This document shows positions 36,773-46,514 of a stretch of 64,000 nucleotides of DNA, one piece after another (position 1 is the stretch's first letter; the number at the start of each line of letters is the position of its first letter). The notes below the pieces were generated by a model that was given only the letters and a program-made list of their open reading frames with translations, was not told where the DNA came from and ran no database searches. The stretch is from Methanoculleus sp. 7T (GTDB lineage: Archaea; Halobacteriota; Methanomicrobia; Methanomicrobiales; Methanoculleaceae), in contig NZ_JALPRP010000001.1 in NCBI RefSeq assembly GCF_023195915.1, forward strand, positions 620,001 to 684,000. The letters run 5' to 3'. The translations under genes and the position numbers were made by a program.

Positions 36773-37672
36773 ATGGAAGAGATTATATTTGGCATCGGAA
36801 TTACCGCATTGGCAGGTGCTCTTGCAACCGTCGCCGGCGCTGCGGAGGATACTGAGTCTGACATCGGGTCGCAGGGAGACCCGAACTCGCAGGTTCAGCT
36901 CGCTCCGCAGATGGGGTATATTCACCGCATCTTCAACAAAGCAGTTGCCGGTGAACCTCCAGCGTACGGCCTCTGGGTTGCATTGGGTGCAGGCCTTGCC
37001 TGGGCATTCATGACGATGCACATAAACCCGATTCTTGCAATCGTGCTTGGGAGCGCTCTCGCGGTCTTCGTGCAGGGCGTCTATGCGACAACCGCATATC
37101 TCGGCCGTACTGCAAGTCTCGCCAAGTTTGGACAGCCGGTCTACATCGATATCTTGAAGTCGATGACGACCGTGACTATGGCACACGCATTTGTAGCGAT
37201 CTTCACCACCGTCGCGATGTGTCACCTGATCATCAGCGCGCTCGGCCACCCCTTCCCGCTCCCGCTTCTCGGCCTCGTGTGGGGTATCGCACTCGGTGCG
37301 GCCGGGTCTGCAACCGGTAACCCGTTCTACGGTAAGGAGCGGCAGTACCAGGAGCAGAAGTTCGGAGCAGGCGTTCCGATCTCCGCATCCGGCAACATCG
37401 TCCGCTACGCCGAAGCCGGCCAGCGGAACTCGCTCGACAACGGTTTCTTCAGCGCCAAACTCGGCGGCCCCGCGTCGGGCATCTGTTTTGGTCTGATCGT
37501 CTTCTTCGAACTCTGGCGTACCGTCGTCTTCGAGCCGATCGCCGCCGGATGGGGAGCGGTCATCGTCGGCATCATTGTGATCCTGGTCTTTGCCATCATC
37601 GACCGTTACATCGAGGTCTGGGCAAGGAAGAACTTCGGCCCCTACGTGGCTCCTGAGGAGGCATCATCATGA
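36773..37672 (+). CDS. mtrE: Tetrahydromethanopterin S-methyltransferase subunit E
   Basis: 299-residue integral membrane subunit of the sodium-pumping complex that moves the methyl group from methyl-H4MPT to coenzyme M. About six hydrophobic segments are visible (for example IIFGIGITALAGALATVAGA and WGAVIVGIIVILVFAIID). GNPFYGKERQYQEQKFGAG is a conserved loop. First gene of the mtr operon, overlapping mtrD by four bases. Confidence 0.97.
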   Translation: MEEIIFGIGITALAGALATVAGAAEDTESDIGSQGDPNSQVQLAPQMGYIHRIFNKAVAGEPPAYGLWVALGAGLAWAFMTMHINPILAIVLGSALAVFVQGVYATTAYLGRTASLAKFGQPVYIDILKSMTTVTMAHAFVAIFTTVAMCHLIISALGHPFPLPLLGLVWGIALGAAGSATGNPFYGKERQYQEQKFGAGVPISASGNIVRYAEAGQRNSLDNGFFSAKLGGPASGICFGLIVFFELWRTVVFEPIAAGWGAVIVGIIVILVFAIIDRYIEVWARKNFGPYVAPEEASS

Positions 37673-38520
37673 GTGCACTTGGCGGACCTAAACAGACTGC
37701 AGGCGTCCAGCCCCCGACAGGGATGGGCCTCGTAATCAGCATTGTTCTTATCATCGTCGCGCTTGCGCTCGCCTACTACCTCATACAGATGGCCGGGCTG
37801 CTCGCCCTCGTCGGCATCATCATCGGCGGCGTCCTGATCGGGTTCGGCGTTCACTTCGTCCCGGTCGGCGGTGCGCCCGCTGCAATGGGACAATCGCCCG
37901 GTATCGCGACCGGTGTCGCGATGCTCGCTGCCGGTGCAGGCCTTGCAGGCCTCTTCGGTGGCGCATGGGCTGCCCCGCTCGGATTCCCCCTTGCTCTCGC
38001 AGGCGGTGCGGTCGGCGGCGGGCTTCTGATGGCGATCACCTGTACGATGGTCAACGTCATCTACATCTTCGGCATGGGTATTCCGGCTGCGTCCGGTAAG
38101 GTCGCAAAGGACCCGATCACGGGCGACACCTTCCCCGAGTACAAGAGCCAGGGTACCGAGGGGCACGGCCTCCCGTTCATCTCCTGGGTCGGCGGTGTTA
38201 TCGGCGGCGCGCTCGGTGGTCTCGGCGGAACGCTCATCTACCTTGAACTCCTCGACGTCTACCAGGCACAGATGCCCACAATCCTGAACGCAACGGTCGA
38301 GCAGATCGCACCCGTAGCCATCTCGCTTGCCGGTATCTTCGCGGTCGGCATGTTCCTGATGAACGCCGTTCTTGCCGCGTACAACATCACCGGTACGATC
38401 GAGGGGCCGCACGACCCCAAGTTCAAGCGGTTCCCGCGGGCGGTCATCGCATCCGCTGCGGCATCCGCTGTGGCAGGTATCTTTGCAATCGGCCTGCTCG
38501 AACTGGTGGGGGTGTTCTAG
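37669..38520 (+). CDS. mtrD: Tetrahydromethanopterin S-methyltransferase subunit D
   Basis: 283-residue membrane subunit with six or more Gly/Ala-rich helices (GLVISIVLIIVALALAYYL, LLALVGIIIGGVLIGFGVHF). MGIPAASGKVAKDPITGD is a conserved loop. Part of the membrane sodium channel with MtrC and MtrE. The stop abuts the mtrC start. Confidence 0.97.
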   Translation: MSALGGPKQTAGVQPPTGMGLVISIVLIIVALALAYYLIQMAGLLALVGIIIGGVLIGFGVHFVPVGGAPAAMGQSPGIATGVAMLAAGAGLAGLFGGAWAAPLGFPLALAGGAVGGGLLMAITCTMVNVIYIFGMGIPAASGKVAKDPITGDTFPEYKSQGTEGHGLPFISWVGGVIGGALGGLGGTLIYLELLDVYQAQMPTILNATVEQIAPVAISLAGIFAVGMFLMNAVLAAYNITGTIEGPHDPKFKRFPRAVIASAAASAVAGIFAIGLLELVGVF

Positions 38521-39372
38521 ATGACAGTAAAAGTTGAAGTAGGAGCAGGCGGCATCCCGCACAACCAGATCCTGATCTACGGTCTCGTGGGATCGCTCGT
38601 CCTCATCTACCTGACATACCTGAACACGTACGTACAGGCCCCATACTTCGCATTCTTCGGCGGGCTTGCCGCCGTGGTCGCACTCCTCTGGGGTACCGAC
38701 ACGATCAAGCACCTCTGCAGTTACGGTCTTGGTACCGGCGTTCCGTCGGCGGGTATGATCGCACTCGGTTCCGGTGTCGTCGCTGCGCTCTTCGGAGCTA
38801 CGACCGGCCCCTTCGCGCCCATCGTGACGATCATCGTCGCCGCAATCATCGGTGCGGTCGCAGGGCTGCTGGCTAACAACGTGGTTCGGATGGACATCCC
38901 GGTCATGGTCGTCTCGCTGACGGAACTTGCAATCGTCGGTGCGATGACGGTGCTCGGCCTCGCCGCCATGGTCGGAGGAACGTTCAATTTCCTTGACCTG
39001 ATCACCGGCACGACCGTCTTCCTCGGGTTCGCCGTCCAGAGTTACGAATTATCCGTCATCGGCGGCAGCGTCATCGCCGTGATCTTCATGCTCGGTGCGA
39101 TCGCCATCCAGCACTCCTTCAACGCCTGTCTCGGGCCCGGGGAGAAGCAGGACCGGACGCTCATGCTCGCCGCAGAGTGCGGGTTCCTCTCCATGATCCC
39201 CGTTGCGGTCATCTCGTTCGCGTTCATCGCATTCATCCCCGCTCTCATATCGCTGCTGGTCTCGGTCATCGGGTGGTACTACACCTACGCTGAGTACATC
39301 AAGCTCTCGAAGCGTGATGCCTACGCTTGGCTCGATGCGCAGCCGATCCTTGAGCCCAAGGGAGGTGCCTAA
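38521..39372 (+). CDS. mtrC: Tetrahydromethanopterin S-methyltransferase subunit C
   Basis: 283-residue membrane subunit, seven or so helices. The segment GLGTGVPSAGMIALGSGVVA and the loop CLGPGEKQDRTLMLAAECG are family features. The stop abuts the mtrB start with no gap, so the two are translated together. Confidence 0.97.
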   Translation: MTVKVEVGAGGIPHNQILIYGLVGSLVLIYLTYLNTYVQAPYFAFFGGLAAVVALLWGTDTIKHLCSYGLGTGVPSAGMIALGSGVVAALFGATTGPFAPIVTIIVAAIIGAVAGLLANNVVRMDIPVMVVSLTELAIVGAMTVLGLAAMVGGTFNFLDLITGTTVFLGFAVQSYELSVIGGSVIAVIFMLGAIAIQHSFNACLGPGEKQDRTLMLAAECGFLSMIPVAVISFAFIAFIPALISLLVSVIGWYYTYAEYIKLSKRDAYAWLDAQPILEPKGGA

Positions 39373-39657
39373 ATGGCATACGTTCAGGTACTGCCCGAGT
39401 ACGGGCTCGTCGTCGACCCGATGGTCGGTATTGTCACCACCGCCGGCGTCTCGTACACCCCCGTGCTCGAACAGGTAGCGGAACTTGAGAAGATCACCGA
39501 CGATCTGGTCGGCATGCTCTCCGGAGAGGGCAACTTCCTGGCATCGTTCCCGAACAGGGAAGGGGTCCTCAAGATCGCCGGAGGAGTGACCGCATTCTGG
39601 TACGGCATGGCAGTCGGTCTTCTGGTTGCCGGTGTCGTCGTATTAGGACTGCTGTGA
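39373..39657 (+). CDS. mtrB: Tetrahydromethanopterin S-methyltransferase subunit B
   Basis: 94-residue subunit: a soluble N-terminal part ([20 protein letters not shown]) and one C-terminal membrane helix ([17 protein letters not shown]). Position between mtrC and mtrA is canonical. Confidence 0.95.
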
Positions 39658-39667
39658 GGTGAAGGAC

Positions 39668-40393
39668 ATGGTTGATAAGAAATCACCGGCCAGCGGATGG
39701 CCGATTGTTCAGGGCGACTTCCACACGGGAGATGCACAGAGCTGCGTCGCTGTCGTCACCATGGGATCCCACCTCGACGAACAGGGCATCTGTGATGCCG
39801 GAGCGGCAATCGCCGGGTCCTGCAAGACCGAGAATCTGGGTATCGAGAAGATCATCGCAAACGTCATCTCCAACCCCAACATCAGGTTCATCCTCTGCTG
39901 CGGGACGGAAGTGAAGGGGCACCTCTCCGGTCAGAGCTTCATGGCGCTGCATTCCGGCGGCGTCTCCGGCGGTAAGATCGTCGGGGCTCAGGGAGCAATC
40001 CCATTCATCGAGAACCTCTCCGACGAGGCGATCAAGCGCTTCCAAGACCAGGTCGAGATGGTCAACATCATGGAAAGCGAGGACATGGGCACCATCAAGG
40101 CCAAGATCAACGAACTCAAGGCCAAAGACCCAGGTGCGTTCCCCGCAGAACCCATGGTCGTCGAGGTTAAGGAGGCAGGCGGTGCCGGCGCCGAAGAGGT
40201 AACCGGCGAAGTACAGCCGCTCTCCGGAGAACTGGCACTGATACACGCACGGATGAAGGTCATCGAGCGGATGGTCACCGACATCGGCTACCGCAACAAG
40301 TTTGCCGCCGGTGTCTACTCGGGTAAGATCGAGGGCCTCATGATCGGCCTGATCGTCTCGTTCGTGATTCTGGGATTCATCTTGCTGGGGTGA
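39668..40393 (+). CDS. mtrA: Tetrahydromethanopterin S-methyltransferase subunit A
   Basis: 241-residue corrinoid subunit that accepts the methyl group on cobalt. The soluble domain has the cobalt-ligand His in [17 protein letters not shown]; the C-terminus has [20 protein letters not shown], the normal MtrA tail and membrane helix. ATG 39668 is chosen; GTG 39659 overlaps the mtrB stop region. The first 170 codons are nearly identical to the second MtrA domain at 40613. Confidence 0.97.
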
Positions 40394-40398
40394 TATAA

Positions 40399-40611
40399 AT
40401 GGCAGAAGAAGGTACACAAGCAGCAGGCCCCATCCGGATGACGGCAATCAACGGAATGATGGACTCCATCCGGTACAAGGCACAGATCCTTGCCCGCACG
40501 AACAAGCTCGAATCAGGTATCATGGGCTCGGGGATCCTCGGATTTGCCATCGGGATCATCGTCGTCATGCTCCTGATCGTGGTTCCGACATTGATGCTGG
40601 GGGCGATCTAA
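40399..40611 (+). CDS. mtrF: Tetrahydromethanopterin S-methyltransferase subunit F
   Basis: 70-residue membrane subunit with one C-terminal helix ([23 protein letters not shown]) after a short soluble part ([20 protein letters not shown]). Position after mtrA is canonical. The next start follows by one base. Confidence 0.9.
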
Positions 40612-40612
40612 C

Positions 40613-41112
40613 ATGGTTGATAAGAAATCACCGGCCAGTGGATGGCCGATCGTTCAGGGCGACTTCCACACCGGAGACGCGCAGAGTTGCGTCGGCGTCG
40701 TCACCATGGGATCCCACCTCGACGAACAGGGCATCTGCGATGCCGGAGCGGCAATCGCCGGGTCCTGTAAGACCGAGAACCTCGGGCTTGAGAAGATCAT
40801 CGCAAACGTCATCTCCAACCCCAACATCAGGTTCATCCTCTGCTGCGGGACGGAAGTGAAAGGGCACCTCTCCGGTCAGAGCTTCATGGCGCTGCATTCC
40901 GGCGGCGTCTCCGGCGGTAAGATCGTCGGGGCTCAGGGAGCAATCCCATTCATCGAGAACCTCTCCGACGAGGCGATCAAGCGCTTCCAAGACCAGGTCG
41001 AGATGGTCAACATCATGGAAAGCGAGGACATGGGCACCATCAAGGCCAAGATCAACGAACTCAAGGCCAAAGACCCAGGTGCGTTCCCCGCAGAACCCAT
41101 GGTCGTCGAGGT
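40613..41112 (+). repeat. Duplicated MtrA domain (copy of 39668-40167)
   Basis: The first 500 bases of the fusion gene match mtrA with few differences. By eye, 40862-41112 is identical to 39917-40167 (251 bases), while scattered silent changes sit in the first 250 bases. This pattern fits recent gene conversion between the two copies. Confidence 0.85.
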
Positions 41113-41350
41113 CAAGGAAGCGGGCGGTGCGGCGGAGGTTGCCGTCGCAGGCGCGAACCCGCAGTTCCTTGAGATCGAGGAGCGGCTCAACGCTATCGAG
41201 GAGAGGATCGAGTTCGTCGATGCAGAGATGGCCCAGCGCGTCGGAAGAAAGGTCGGGCGCGATATCGGCATCCTGTATGGACTGGTTGCAGGTTTGATTG
41301 TATTCATGATGTTGTTGGTATTACTGCCCAAGTTGATTGGGTTCCTGTAA
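40613..41350 (+). CDS. mtrG: MtrA-MtrG fusion protein
   Basis: 245 residues. Residues 1 to about 170 are an almost exact second copy of the MtrA corrinoid domain, including the cobalt-ligand His85 (KGHLSGQ). After a short Ala/Val linker the rest ([19 protein letters not shown], then [20 protein letters not shown] and a membrane helix) is a complete MtrG. The gene occupies the mtrG position between mtrF and mtrH, and no other mtrG exists here. So the stalk subunit appears to carry an additional corrinoid domain. The expected consequence is a complex with twice the MtrA domains, or regulated variants; this is inference. Confidence 0.9.
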
Positions 41351-41365
41351 GGAGGATTGACGAAT

Positions 41366-42403
41366 ATGTTCAAGTTCGAAAAAGAGCAGACGGTACACGA
41401 CTTCAACGGTACCAAGATCGGCGGGCAGCCTGGAGAATACCCGACCGTGCTCGGTGCATCCATCTTCTACAACAAGCACGAAGTTGTTCTGGATGACCAC
41501 ACCGGAAAGATCGACAAGATAAAAGCAGAAGGACTCTGGAACCGCTGCCAGGAACTTTCGGATATCACCGGCATTCCGCACTTTATCCAGATCATCGCGG
41601 AGTATCCTGAGGCCTTCGATAGCTACATCGACTGGTTCTGTAGCATCGATGACAAGACTGCGTTCCTGATGGACTCTTCCGTCCCGACGGCGCTTGCTCA
41701 TGCATGCGAGTACGTCACCGAGGCTGGTGTTGCGGACCGTGCGATCTACAACTCGATCAACGGCTCGATCATACCCGAGAACATCGAGGCGCTGGCCAAG
41801 AGCGACGTGACTGCCGCGATTGTCCTCGCCTTCAACCCTGCAGACCCGTCGGTTGCCGGCCGCGAGAAGGTTCTGGTCGAGGGCGGCGTCGCCGGTCAGG
41901 AGCTCGGGATGCTCGAGATCGCGGAGAAGTGCGGCATCACCCGCCCAATCCTCGATACCGCAGCAACCCCGCTCGGCCTCGGCTCCGGCGGTGCATACCG
42001 TGAGATCCTTGCCTGCAAAGCAATCCACGGCCTGCCGACCGGCGGTGCATACCACAACATGACTGTTTCCTGGACCTGGCTGAAGCGGTGGAAGGGAACG
42101 AAGAAAGTTCCCTCACAGCAGCTGGCCGGCCTCGAGGGCAAAGATGCCCTTATCGAGCAGCTCACGCACCACTATCTTGGTGGTACAGATGGGATGCGCC
42201 AGGCAGCCTGGTCTGCGCCCGATATCGGGTGCAACATGATCGCGAGCACGCTCGGTGCCGACCTGATCATGTACGGCCCGATCGAGAATGTCGAGGCGAT
42301 GATCACCGCACAGGCCTATACCGATATCACCATCCTCGAAGCGGCACGCGACTTCGGTATCGAGCCCAAGGTCGACACTCACCCGATCTTTAAACTCATT
42401 TAA
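41366..42403 (+). CDS. mtrH: Tetrahydromethanopterin S-methyltransferase subunit H
   Basis: 345-residue soluble methyltransferase subunit that transfers the methyl group from methyl-H4MPT to MtrA cobalt; TIM-barrel fold. Features are FEKEQTVHDFNGTKIGGQPGEYPTVL, YNSINGSIIPENIEAL and DTAATPLGLGSGGAYREI. ATG 41366 has GGAGG ten bases ahead; the TTG at 41357 overlaps that site. Last gene of the operon, followed by a T run. Confidence 0.97.
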   Translation: MFKFEKEQTVHDFNGTKIGGQPGEYPTVLGASIFYNKHEVVLDDHTGKIDKIKAEGLWNRCQELSDITGIPHFIQIIAEYPEAFDSYIDWFCSIDDKTAFLMDSSVPTALAHACEYVTEAGVADRAIYNSINGSIIPENIEALAKSDVTAAIVLAFNPADPSVAGREKVLVEGGVAGQELGMLEIAEKCGITRPILDTAATPLGLGSGGAYREILACKAIHGLPTGGAYHNMTVSWTWLKRWKGTKKVPSQQLAGLEGKDALIEQLTHHYLGGTDGMRQAAWSAPDIGCNMIASTLGADLIMYGPIENVEAMITAQAYTDITILEAARDFGIEPKVDTHPIFKLI

Positions 42404-42713: not shown

Positions 42714-43406
42714 ATGAAGCTGATTACCGTTGCAGGCCCTCCGTCCTCAGGAAAGACCTCTGTGATCCTCAAAACCATTGCAGCCCTCGGGCTACCCGAA
42801 GGAAGCGTGGGTGTCGTGAAGTTCGACTCGCTCACCTCCTTCGATCACCAGCGCTACGACGAACAACTGATACCCAACCAGACTGCTTTTGCCGGAAAAA
42901 TCTGTCCGGACCACTTTTTCGTCAGCAATGTCGAAGGGGCGGTCGAATGGGGGATGAAGAAAGGATTATCGATTCTTGTCACGGAAAGCGCAGGTCTCTG
43001 CAACCGGTGCTCGCCGCACGTGAACGGTATCCTGTCGGTCTGCGTGATCGACAACCTTTCAGGCGTCAATACGCCGAGGAAGATCGGCCCGATGCTGAAA
43101 TATGCCGATATCGTCGTCGTCACCAAAGGGGATATCGTCTCCCAGGCGGAACGCGAGGTCTTCGCCTTCAACGTCCGCGAGGTCAACGCATCGGCGACTG
43201 TTCTCTTCGTCAACGGGATTACCGGACAGGGAGCGTTTATCCTCGCCCGCTACTGGCGGGAAGCCCTTGATATCCAAACCCTTCGCGACCGCAAACTCAG
43301 ATTCACCATGCCCGCCGCCATCTGCTCGTACTGTACCGGCGAGACCCTTATCGGAGAGATGTATCAGATGGGGATGGTCAAACGAATGGAGTTCGACGAC
43401 GTATGA
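42714..43406 (+). CDS. P-loop GTPase of the HypB/UreG-like metallocentre group
   Basis: 230 residues. Walker A is GPPSSGKTS (residues 8-16), and VVVTKGD is the probable base-recognition motif. Two CxxC pairs, GLCNRCSPH in mid-protein and AICSYCTGETL near the C-terminus, could bind a metal such as Ni or Zn. The layout resembles GTPases that deliver metals to enzymes (HypB, UreG, CooC groups), but I cannot assign a target. It overlaps the ABC ATPase gene by four bases (ATGA), so the three-gene operon is translated as a unit. Confidence 0.82.
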   Translation: MKLITVAGPPSSGKTSVILKTIAALGLPEGSVGVVKFDSLTSFDHQRYDEQLIPNQTAFAGKICPDHFFVSNVEGAVEWGMKKGLSILVTESAGLCNRCSPHVNGILSVCVIDNLSGVNTPRKIGPMLKYADIVVVTKGDIVSQAEREVFAFNVREVNASATVLFVNGITGQGAFILARYWREALDIQTLRDRKLRFTMPAAICSYCTGETLIGEMYQMGMVKRMEFDDV

Positions 43407-44437
43407 AGGCCCTCGATTATGTTACAGAGGTCTCTACCGTCCCAATCGGCGACATTCTCCGCCGCTACCCTCTTGCTGCCGATTATCTTGCCAACATGCG
43501 GCTCGGGCGGGTTGATGAGACCAAAACACTCCCTGAGATTCTGGAGGATGTCGACGAGGATATGCTTGAGGAGTTCGGGCTTGACCGCGAGGAGGTCATA
43601 TTCCACTTCTGTGCATTTCTTGAGGCATTTTCCCGGGCGAAACCCTCAGATGAGACCATCGCCTCGATCACAATCCTCGGTGGCCGGAACAAGGCGGGAA
43701 GACCCGAGATGGTCGAACTGACGATAACGCCCGGCGAGGTTGTAAGTATCGTCGGCCCTACCGGCTCGGGAAAAAGCAGGCTGCTTGAGGATATTGAATG
43801 CCTTGCGCAGCGCGATACGCCGACCGCAAGGCAGATTCTCATCAACGGCTCGGTTCCCGATCTCAGTAAGAGGTTTTCCACAGGAGGAAAACTGGTAGCC
43901 CAGCTCTCGCAGAACATGAACTTCGTCATGGACTTAACGGTGCAGGAGTTTCTGGAGATGCATGCGAAAAGCCGGATGACTCCCGAGTCCGCAGCGGTTG
44001 TGGAGAAGTGTTTTGCGGTTGCCAACTCTCTCGCCGGCGAGAAGTTCACGCTGGATACGAAGGTCACTCAACTTTCCGGCGGACAGTCGCGGTCACTGAT
44101 GATTGCCGATACCGCTCTTCTGAGTTCATCCCCGATCATCCTTATCGATGAACTGGAGAATGCAGGAATCGACCGGCGAGAGGCGGTTAAGATCCTTGTC
44201 GGCAACGAGAAGATTGTCCTCATGTCGACGCACGACCCGCTTCTCGCTCTCCGTGCCGATAAGCGGATTGTCATCAGAAACGGAGGCATTGTAAAAGTGA
44301 TTGAGACGACTGCCGAAGAGGAAGAGACGCTTCATAAGATTGAGACGATCGATTCCGTTCTCCTCGATATTCGCAATCAGCTCCGGGGAGGGGGAATCAT
44401 CGCAAAAGAGAGTATTCCGGAATTCCAAGGGAGATAA
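43403..44437 (+). CDS. Soluble ABC-type ATPase with N-terminal helical domain
   Basis: 344 residues. Residues 1-75 look like a DUF1858/DUF542-type helical domain (IGDILRRYPLAADYL, KTLPEILEDVDEDML). The ABC ATPase follows: Walker A GPTGSGKSRLLE, signature LSGGQSRSLMIA, Walker B PIILIDELENAGIDR and H-loop MSTHDPLLAL. No permease or binding protein is encoded next to it. This suggests a mechanical or remodelling ATPase acting with the GTPase and the DUF364 protein, rather than a transporter. Confidence 0.85.
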   Translation: MKALDYVTEVSTVPIGDILRRYPLAADYLANMRLGRVDETKTLPEILEDVDEDMLEEFGLDREEVIFHFCAFLEAFSRAKPSDETIASITILGGRNKAGRPEMVELTITPGEVVSIVGPTGSGKSRLLEDIECLAQRDTPTARQILINGSVPDLSKRFSTGGKLVAQLSQNMNFVMDLTVQEFLEMHAKSRMTPESAAVVEKCFAVANSLAGEKFTLDTKVTQLSGGQSRSLMIADTALLSSSPIILIDELENAGIDRREAVKILVGNEKIVLMSTHDPLLALRADKRIVIRNGGIVKVIETTAEEEETLHKIETIDSVLLDIRNQLRGGGIIAKESIPEFQGR

Positions 44438-44440
44438 ACC

Positions 44441-45205
44441 ATGTGGGAGTTATACGACGCGCTGATTGAAGAGATCCCGGACGACATCATCGTCGACGAC
44501 ATCGTCGTCGGCGGGGAGATGACGTACGTCGAGGCAAACGGCGGCATCGGTCTTGCGGCATACCGCGATTATGTCCAACGTGCCCCGATGATGACCGGGA
44601 ACAGGATTGGGAAGCCGTTATGCGAGGTAGCCGAGTGTGTGAGATCCTGGAATCTGCAGGAGGCATCCATCGGCCATTCTGCGATCAACGCATGGTACAA
44701 TCATCCTGATACTGCCGGGAAAGCAGGGATAGAGATTGCGGAGAAGAAGCGGGTCGAAGAACGGCTGAAAGACCCGTTCATCAAATCCCAGAACCTCGTG
44801 AAGGGAAAGAAGGTCTGTGTCGTCGGCCATTTTCCGTTCCTTGAGAAACTGATTGCCCCTGTCTGTGATCTGAGTATTATTGAGTGGGACCCGCAGGAGG
44901 GAGACTACCCGTATTCCGCCTGCGAGTACCTGCTGCCTGAATCCGATTATGCGTTTCTGACTTGTGCCGCTGTCGGCGACAAGAGTATGCCCCGGCTTCT
45001 TGAACTTTCGGAGAATGCGAAAGGGGTAACGATCGTAGGTCCGGGAACTCCCCTGTCTTCGGTCTTCTTCGATTACGGCGTCTCCGATCTCTCGGGTTTT
45101 GTGGTAACCGACATTGCGTTCGCCAAACGGATCATTGCAGGAGCAGAGAGCCGGCGGATCTTCGGGGCGGGAATGAAGGTAGAGTATCTTCGCCCCGGGG
45201 TTTGA
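44441..45205 (+). CDS. DUF364 (putative heavy-metal chelation) protein
   Basis: 254 residues. The N-terminal part (MWELYDALIEEIPDDIIVDD, GIGLAA) matches the DUF4213 enolase-like extension. The C-terminal Rossmann-like part (GKKVCVVGHFPFLEKL, IIEWDPQEGDYPYSACEYLL, TIVGPGTPLSSVFFDYGVSDLSG) is DUF364. Members are proposed to bind metal ions; activity is not established. It starts three bases after the ATPase stop. Confidence 0.85.
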   Translation: MWELYDALIEEIPDDIIVDDIVVGGEMTYVEANGGIGLAAYRDYVQRAPMMTGNRIGKPLCEVAECVRSWNLQEASIGHSAINAWYNHPDTAGKAGIEIAEKKRVEERLKDPFIKSQNLVKGKKVCVVGHFPFLEKLIAPVCDLSIIEWDPQEGDYPYSACEYLLPESDYAFLTCAAVGDKSMPRLLELSENAKGVTIVGPGTPLSSVFFDYGVSDLSGFVVTDIAFAKRIIAGAESRRIFGAGMKVEYLRPGV

Positions 45206-45289: not shown

Positions 45290-45556
45290 TCACAACCCGC
45301 GATATGCAGTGCGCCGGTGGCGAACATAGAGGATTATAACCTCCTGCTCCTCATGATGCAGAGCGTATATAATCCGGTAATCCCCCATCCGGATCCGGTA
45401 GAGATGCTCCGTTCCGCTTAATTTGCGTACACCAGGTGGCAACGGTGTTTCAGATAGAGCCTCTATGTTCTGCAGAATGCGCAGAACAACCTCATCCGGC
45501 AATGTTGCAATATCCTTCTCAACACTTGCTTTGATGCGAACCGCATATCCCACCAT
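45290..45556 (-). CDS. RelE/ParE-family toxin
   Basis: 88-residue toxin of the RelE fold. VRIKASVEKDIATLPDEV, a central GVRKLSGTEHLYRIRMGDYRIIYAL and the C-terminal IILYVRHRRTAYR are typical. Probable mRNA interferase that cleaves at the ribosome. Its ATG overlaps the antitoxin stop by one base (TAATG), the usual antitoxin-first arrangement. Confidence 0.9.
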   Translation of the reverse strand: MVGYAVRIKASVEKDIATLPDEVVLRILQNIEALSETPLPPGVRKLSGTEHLYRIRMGDYRIIYALHHEEQEVIILYVRHRRTAYRGL

Positions 45557-45735
45557 TACCGCTCGTACCGCTTCCTGAACTCATCGAACCCTACGCTTGG
45601 CTCTTCGCGCCGCTCTGCTACCACAGCAAGGTCATGGAGGTCCTCCTGCAGTTGCTCGTACTCCTGGAGAGGAAGAATAATCGCGACACGGTTCCCGTGC
45701 TCATCAACAACGTACTGTTCTCCTGTAGCACTCAT
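45556..45735 (-). CDS. RelB/Phd-family antitoxin
   Basis: 59 residues from ATG 45735, which has GGAGG at good spacing; the open frame runs upstream to 45795 without support. MSATGEQYVVDEHGNRVAII is a Phd/YefM-type N-terminal DNA-binding domain; the C-terminal EEPSVGFDEFRKRYER is the toxin-binding tail. It should neutralise the toxin and autorepress the operon. Confidence 0.85.
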   Translation of the reverse strand: MSATGEQYVVDEHGNRVAIILPLQEYEQLQEDLHDLAVVAERREEPSVGFDEFRKRYER

Positions 45736-46514
45736 CGTCACAGCCTCCTCACTCCTAGATGGAGTGCAGAGGCCATTAACCTTCTTTTGCTGCATCAGGT
45801 GAAGGATACCCTCCCCCTACTGGCCGGAACGCCCGGAGCTCGACCACCGCTAGCCTCGCGGCGCCCGGGCCGGTCACCAATCGCATTGGAGGGGACTACT
45901 GGAGCACTTCAGCTAAAATTTCCCCTGAAAACTGCCCTGGTTTGGCGGGTGGGGGAATCATGGCTCCGTTTGTGCTCCGGGCATGGCTTCCGTACGGGGG
46001 GGAGGGGGCGAGCCCCATACGCGCTAACGTTTGGTATGGAGACTCATGAGAATGGCGCTCGATTCAGGAGATGGGGGTCGGTTTCGGGTATTATTGACCG
46101 GTCTGCAGTCAATAAACCACCTTCTTAGAATACGGTATTGATCCTTGTCGGGGAGTACGAGATGAGAGCCCGACCGGCTCGTTCCGGGAGGTTACCATGC
46201 CCCGGGCAGGGTTTTCCCCGGGTATCGCCACACACTGCCCCCGCCCCAGGGGGGCGGGGGAGGAGGCCGGGCGGGGTGGGGGGTTCGCGGTATCGCCGCC
46301 TGCGGGGGGAGGGCGAGCCCCCTCCCCGGTCCCCACCCCTCGGGACGAGGCCCACCACGGTCCACAGCATGGGGTGAGAGCCTGGGGAATAGGTTGTTTT
46401 CCTGCGTACAGCCTCTCGCTCTGCCCGACCCCCTGGGCCGCCGGCATTGCCACCCAACACACCCCTGCAGGACCAGGCTTGAAAAAGAACTGGCGTTCTC
46501 CTATCTGCCGTCGC
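45736..46514. repeat. GC-rich intergenic region with hairpin repeats
   Basis: No convincing gene. Repeat units of the dispersed GC-rich family appear at about 45995-46015 (GGGGGGGAGGGGGCGAGCCCC) and 46303-46327 (GGGGAGGGCGAGCCCCCTCCCC), with TATCGCC at 46291 as a possible outer arm. An oligo-T on the minus strand near 46485 may end the SelB-like gene. Confidence 0.55.

Follow-up and report, generated by a model that had tools for sequence, protein, structure and literature searches.

The fusion of an MtrA corrinoid domain to MtrG is already known. According to Wang et al. 2015 (PMC4632066), the gene called mtrA-2b is an mtrA-G fusion of Methanomicrobiales as a whole order, Methanoculleus bourgensis and M. 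marisnigri being among the genomes in the set, and gene conversion keeps its MtrA domain similar to mtrA-1. A 2018 survey confirms the mtrA-G fusion (PMC6053082), and a 2023 study cites frequent mtrF/mtrG fusion and reports further MtrA-F fusions (PMC9982363). Other described arrangements involve a different partner. In mtrA-2a, the mtrA-F fusion of Methanococcales and Methanocella arvoryzae, a second corrinoid domain likewise sits on a small stalk subunit and is homogenised with mtrA-1, but the partner is MtrF, MtrG is free, and the origin is independent according to that paper (PMC4632066). The EDCB[AF]FGH operon of TACK archaea, Methanoliparia and ANME-1 also joins MtrA to another stalk subunit; here, however, mtrA is fused with a duplicate mtrF and MtrG is uninvolved (PMC9982363). 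In the canonical MtrA-H complex (PDB 8q3v and 9qtq), each protomer contains a single MtrA domain and an MtrG that is free. The literature searched yielded no structure, proteomics or mutant of a Methanomicrobiales Mtr.

The window analysed here, a 64,000-nucleotide stretch of the Methanoculleus sp. 7T genome, carries the operon mtrE-D-C-B-A1-F-[A2-G]-H, which encodes all eight subunits, as in the canonical complex (Table 1). The fusion gene sits between mtrF and mtrH, with mtrA-1 upstream. Compared with the published mtrA-2b (PMC4632066), the order, the mtrF-mtrH slot, the domains, the position as second to an intact mtrA-1 and the gene conversion are the same; the architecture differs in nothing, and the present case is another species. 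The analysis reproduces and extends that study, and the novelty implied by an earlier note on this DNA falls away. Our preferred reading, with a probability of roughly 0.85, is that the gene is the order-wide mtrA-2b, the outcome of one ancestral fusion with gene conversion since, whose product would stand in MtrG's place and provide six carriers.

Table 1. Features of the mtr operon and of the fusion gene within it (window positions).
Feature	Position	Strand	Evidence
mtrE	36773..37672	+	PF04206, 428 bits
mtrD	37669..38520	+	PF04207, 309 bits
mtrC	38521..39372	+	PF04211, 236 bits
mtrB	39373..39657	+	PF05440, 108 bits
mtrA-1, ordinary MtrA with its own C-terminal stalk/transmembrane helix	39668..40393	+	PF04208, 285 bits; ATG at 39668
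mtrF, unfused	40399..40611	+	PF09472, 73 bits
mtrA-2/mtrG fusion gene (mtrA-2b of Wang et al. 2015)	40613..41350	+	Pfam and NCBIfam; GGGGGCGATC upstream
MtrA corrinoid domain of the fusion (residues 1-173), cobalt-ligand His85	40613..41131	+	PF04208; matches to MtrA of 5l8x, 5laa, 8q3v and 9qtq
251-nt tract identical to mtrA-1 (39917-40167)	40862..41112	+	nucleotide comparison of the two copies
Ala/Gly-rich linker and junction motif ANPQF	41132..41158	+	motif conservation across the order; low model confidence at residues 170-193
MtrG stalk/transmembrane helix (residues 183-236)	41159..41320	+	PF04210; chains 9qtq_S and 8q3v_G; single model helix 183-244
mtrH	41366..42403	+	PF02007, 330 bits

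The fusion is an open reading frame of 245 aa without internal stop, with a Shine-Dalgarno-like sequence just 5' of its start. The earlier note had read the mtrG slot as a full MtrA corrinoid domain, cobalt-ligand His included, joined to a complete MtrG. The first part of this holds: the Pfam MtrA model matches residues 4-173 with 283 bits, the solved MtrA chains match the first half of the protein, and the His of KGHLSGQS is residue 85, whose counterpart in M. mazei MtrA serves as the lower cobalt ligand (PMC12774963). Both marks of an MtrA are present, the cobalt-ligand His and a complete corrinoid domain (profile positions 1-171 of 173). An MtrG match follows in the same frame (residues 183-236, 80 bits), and the solved MtrG chains match the second half; both Pfam matches lie well over cut-off, and the NCBIfam mtrA and mtrG models each exceed their own. 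"Complete" was too strong for this second part, which covers profile positions 10-63 of 64 and lacks roughly the first nine. It does have the stalk/transmembrane helix that defines the family, so that, judged by sequence, the partner counts as an MtrG whose N-terminus is altered. In the predicted structure (mean pLDDT 69.8), a folded domain is followed by a linker of poor confidence, probably flexible, and then by a single long helix. The claim that there is no separate mtrG stands: none is in the operon, and a search of the whole genome returned one MtrG, the fused one, with no free mtrG, along with two MtrA domains, those of mtrA-1 and the fusion, both in the mtr operon.

Beyond the 3' end of mtrH, positions 42714-45205 (+) encode a CobW-type GTPase-like protein, an ABC-type ATPase, which we take to be possibly the Mcr activation component A2, and a DUF364/DUF4213 protein. 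At 45290-45795 (-), a ParE-type toxin frame preceded by a RelB/Phd-like antitoxin forms an ordinary type II toxin-antitoxin pair adjoining the methanogenesis cluster.

Most free MtrGs read begin with a conserved P-x-V-x-VD stretch ahead of the long helix. This stretch, typical of free MtrG but not what defines the family, is absent from the fusion; all fusions read carry A-x-P-Q-[FY] in its place (here ANPQF, at 41153-41167 and so extending into the MtrG part), a motif kept across Methanomicrobiales and not found in free MtrG. A junction conserved in this way points to a single fusion event, and the joint, identical across genera, likewise indicates one fusion, after which conversion affected the corrinoid domain alone. 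In M. mazei, an extended sheet is built from the N-termini of MtrB, MtrF and MtrG, and its MtrB part holds the MtrH dimer (PMC12774963). From its position in the sequence, the lost stretch would be the MtrG strand of that sheet, and without it the MtrH-holding sheet could be altered. To the accessible text of Wang et al. 2015 (PMC4632066), the present analysis adds the junction motif and the loss of this strand.

Could the two halves part company in the cell? The fusion might be cut after translation, or MtrG might be made from an internal start, either of which would put an ordinary MtrG and a loose MtrA domain in the complex. In favour of this are the linker, probably flexible in the model, and an in-frame ATG at codon 163, which would yield an 83-aa MtrG with a short lead. 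That ATG, however, has no Shine-Dalgarno-like sequence upstream (GTGCGTTCCCCGCAGAACCC), and the MVVEV residues at this point are part of the MtrA domain, which is reason enough for the ATG to be there. The next one in frame, codon 206, falls inside the MtrG helix, and none of the in-frame ATGs of the MtrG half is preceded by a Shine-Dalgarno-like sequence. An internal start was rejected as offering no convincing ribosome site; since the in-frame joint is also kept across the order, separation of the halves by either route is improbable.

The earlier note had called for a survey of Methanomicrobiales mtr operons. MtrG was found once in each of 30 of the 35 genomes of the genus and of 141 of the 159 genomes of the order. 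In the loci read, which come from most genera of the order, MtrA lies in frame upstream of MtrG wherever the contig extends far enough, and among the loci examined an MtrG looks unfused only where the contig stops at its N-terminus. Named relatives of the fusion in public genomes belong to Methanoculleus, Methanolinea, Methanoregula and Methanospirillum; the closest are Methanoculleus, with up to 95% amino acid identity over the whole fusion, which places the host in Methanomicrobiales. Outside the order but within the phylum, the MtrGs among the matches listed are free: their open frames do not exceed 143 aa, and for most of them the profile match starts at positions 1 to 6, as is usual for free proteins. 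Five genomes outside the order also carry, apart from the full-length gene, a second, shorter MtrG-like frame of 55-57 aa (G411:C120, G448:C15, G323:C109, G400:C41 and G425:C129); most such frames match the profile from about position 9-11, and one has an internal stop.

The two MtrA copies in the window differ at 22 positions over about 525 nt (96% nucleotide identity), and the 251-nt identical tract they share is likely the trace of a recent gene conversion. Across 31 complete operons, with 62 MtrA domains, nucleotide identity averages 94% within a genome (paralogs) versus 74% between genomes (orthologs). In the DNA tree each of the 31 genomes has its MtrA-1 grouped with its own MtrA-2, and a tree holding all MtrA-2 as one clade is rejected (p-AU 2e-84). 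The ratio dN/dS is about 0.04-0.14 in most paralog pairs, and 0.08-0.12 in the most diverged (dS 0.7-1.2). These ratios show purifying selection on the fusion's corrinoid domain, which looks functional, given the low dN/dS in most pairs and a cobalt-ligand His present in 62/62 domains. Pairing by species in the tree would also arise if the gene had been duplicated and fused separately and recently in each species, with no gene conversion. However, gene order, joint and A-x-P-Q-[FY] are identical in all genera read, so that dozens of identical fusions would be needed; Wang et al. reject separate duplications for the same reason (PMC4632066), and such a history is highly improbable. That the arrangement is an assembly artefact of the repeated mtrA, which does interrupt many drafts of the order, can be dismissed, since two copies with 22 differences are not a single repeat duplicated by the assembler, and the arrangement recurs in single-contig genomes from several genera.

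The homogenised mtrA repeat breaks or gaps many order drafts, for example L085, L083, L084, L077/L148 and L146/L171. True absence of MtrG was rejected for ten genomes of the order without a match, which were put down to assembly gaps: eight of them also have no MtrH match, and two have an MtrH cut at the contig start. Broken mtrA genes in three drafts were likewise read as assembly faults, namely an N-filled gap and collapsed repeat in L077, the same inner stretch missing from both copies in L044, and a frameshift adjoining the contig end in L032. Automated metagenome-bin surveys will therefore mis-score mtrF, mtrG and mtrH as missing or truncated in Methanomicrobiales.

In the history proposed for mtrA-2b, a second copy of the MtrA corrinoid domain would have been joined to mtrG in an ancestor of Methanomicrobiales, and the fusion would have replaced free mtrG at the cost of the short N-terminal strand of MtrG. 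Later gene conversion from the neighbouring mtrA-1 would have kept the corrinoid domains alike within species, as the tree supports, and left the membrane helices distinct. The Mtr of M. mazei is a trimer with six MtrH copies, its three MtrG helices lie on the axis as an axial seal in the membrane, and its MtrA corrinoid domain swings on a flexible linker that the structure does not resolve (PMC12774963). The fusion product most likely takes the place of MtrG in the central stalk of the trimeric complex. The second corrinoid domain would then hang from the cytosolic end by a short, flexible tether, taking methyl from MtrH and handing it to coenzyme M next to the MtrA-1 domain. Provided that the fusion enters the complex as MtrG does, extra corrinoid domains would be present there: likely six tethered domains per trimer and not three, giving six methyl carriers for the six MtrH copies. 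The M. mazei authors consider the distal MtrH unlikely to reach MtrA for steric reasons (PMC12774963), so adding a corrinoid domain would not necessarily double the capacity that is of use. A bolder and rather doubtful idea is that the second domain, tethered to MtrG near the MtrH-bearing stalk sheet, gives each of the six MtrH its own methyl carrier, the two tethers of one complex differing in reach and partners. If true, the sodium-pumping methyltransferase would work in a structurally altered way.

As a genome finding, the locus contributes a further species to the published record, together with two minor structural details. Mtr carries out the sodium-pumping step of methanogenesis, and the orders in which MtrG or MtrF bears an additional corrinoid domain provide natural variants in which the stoichiometry and reach of the complex could be tested.
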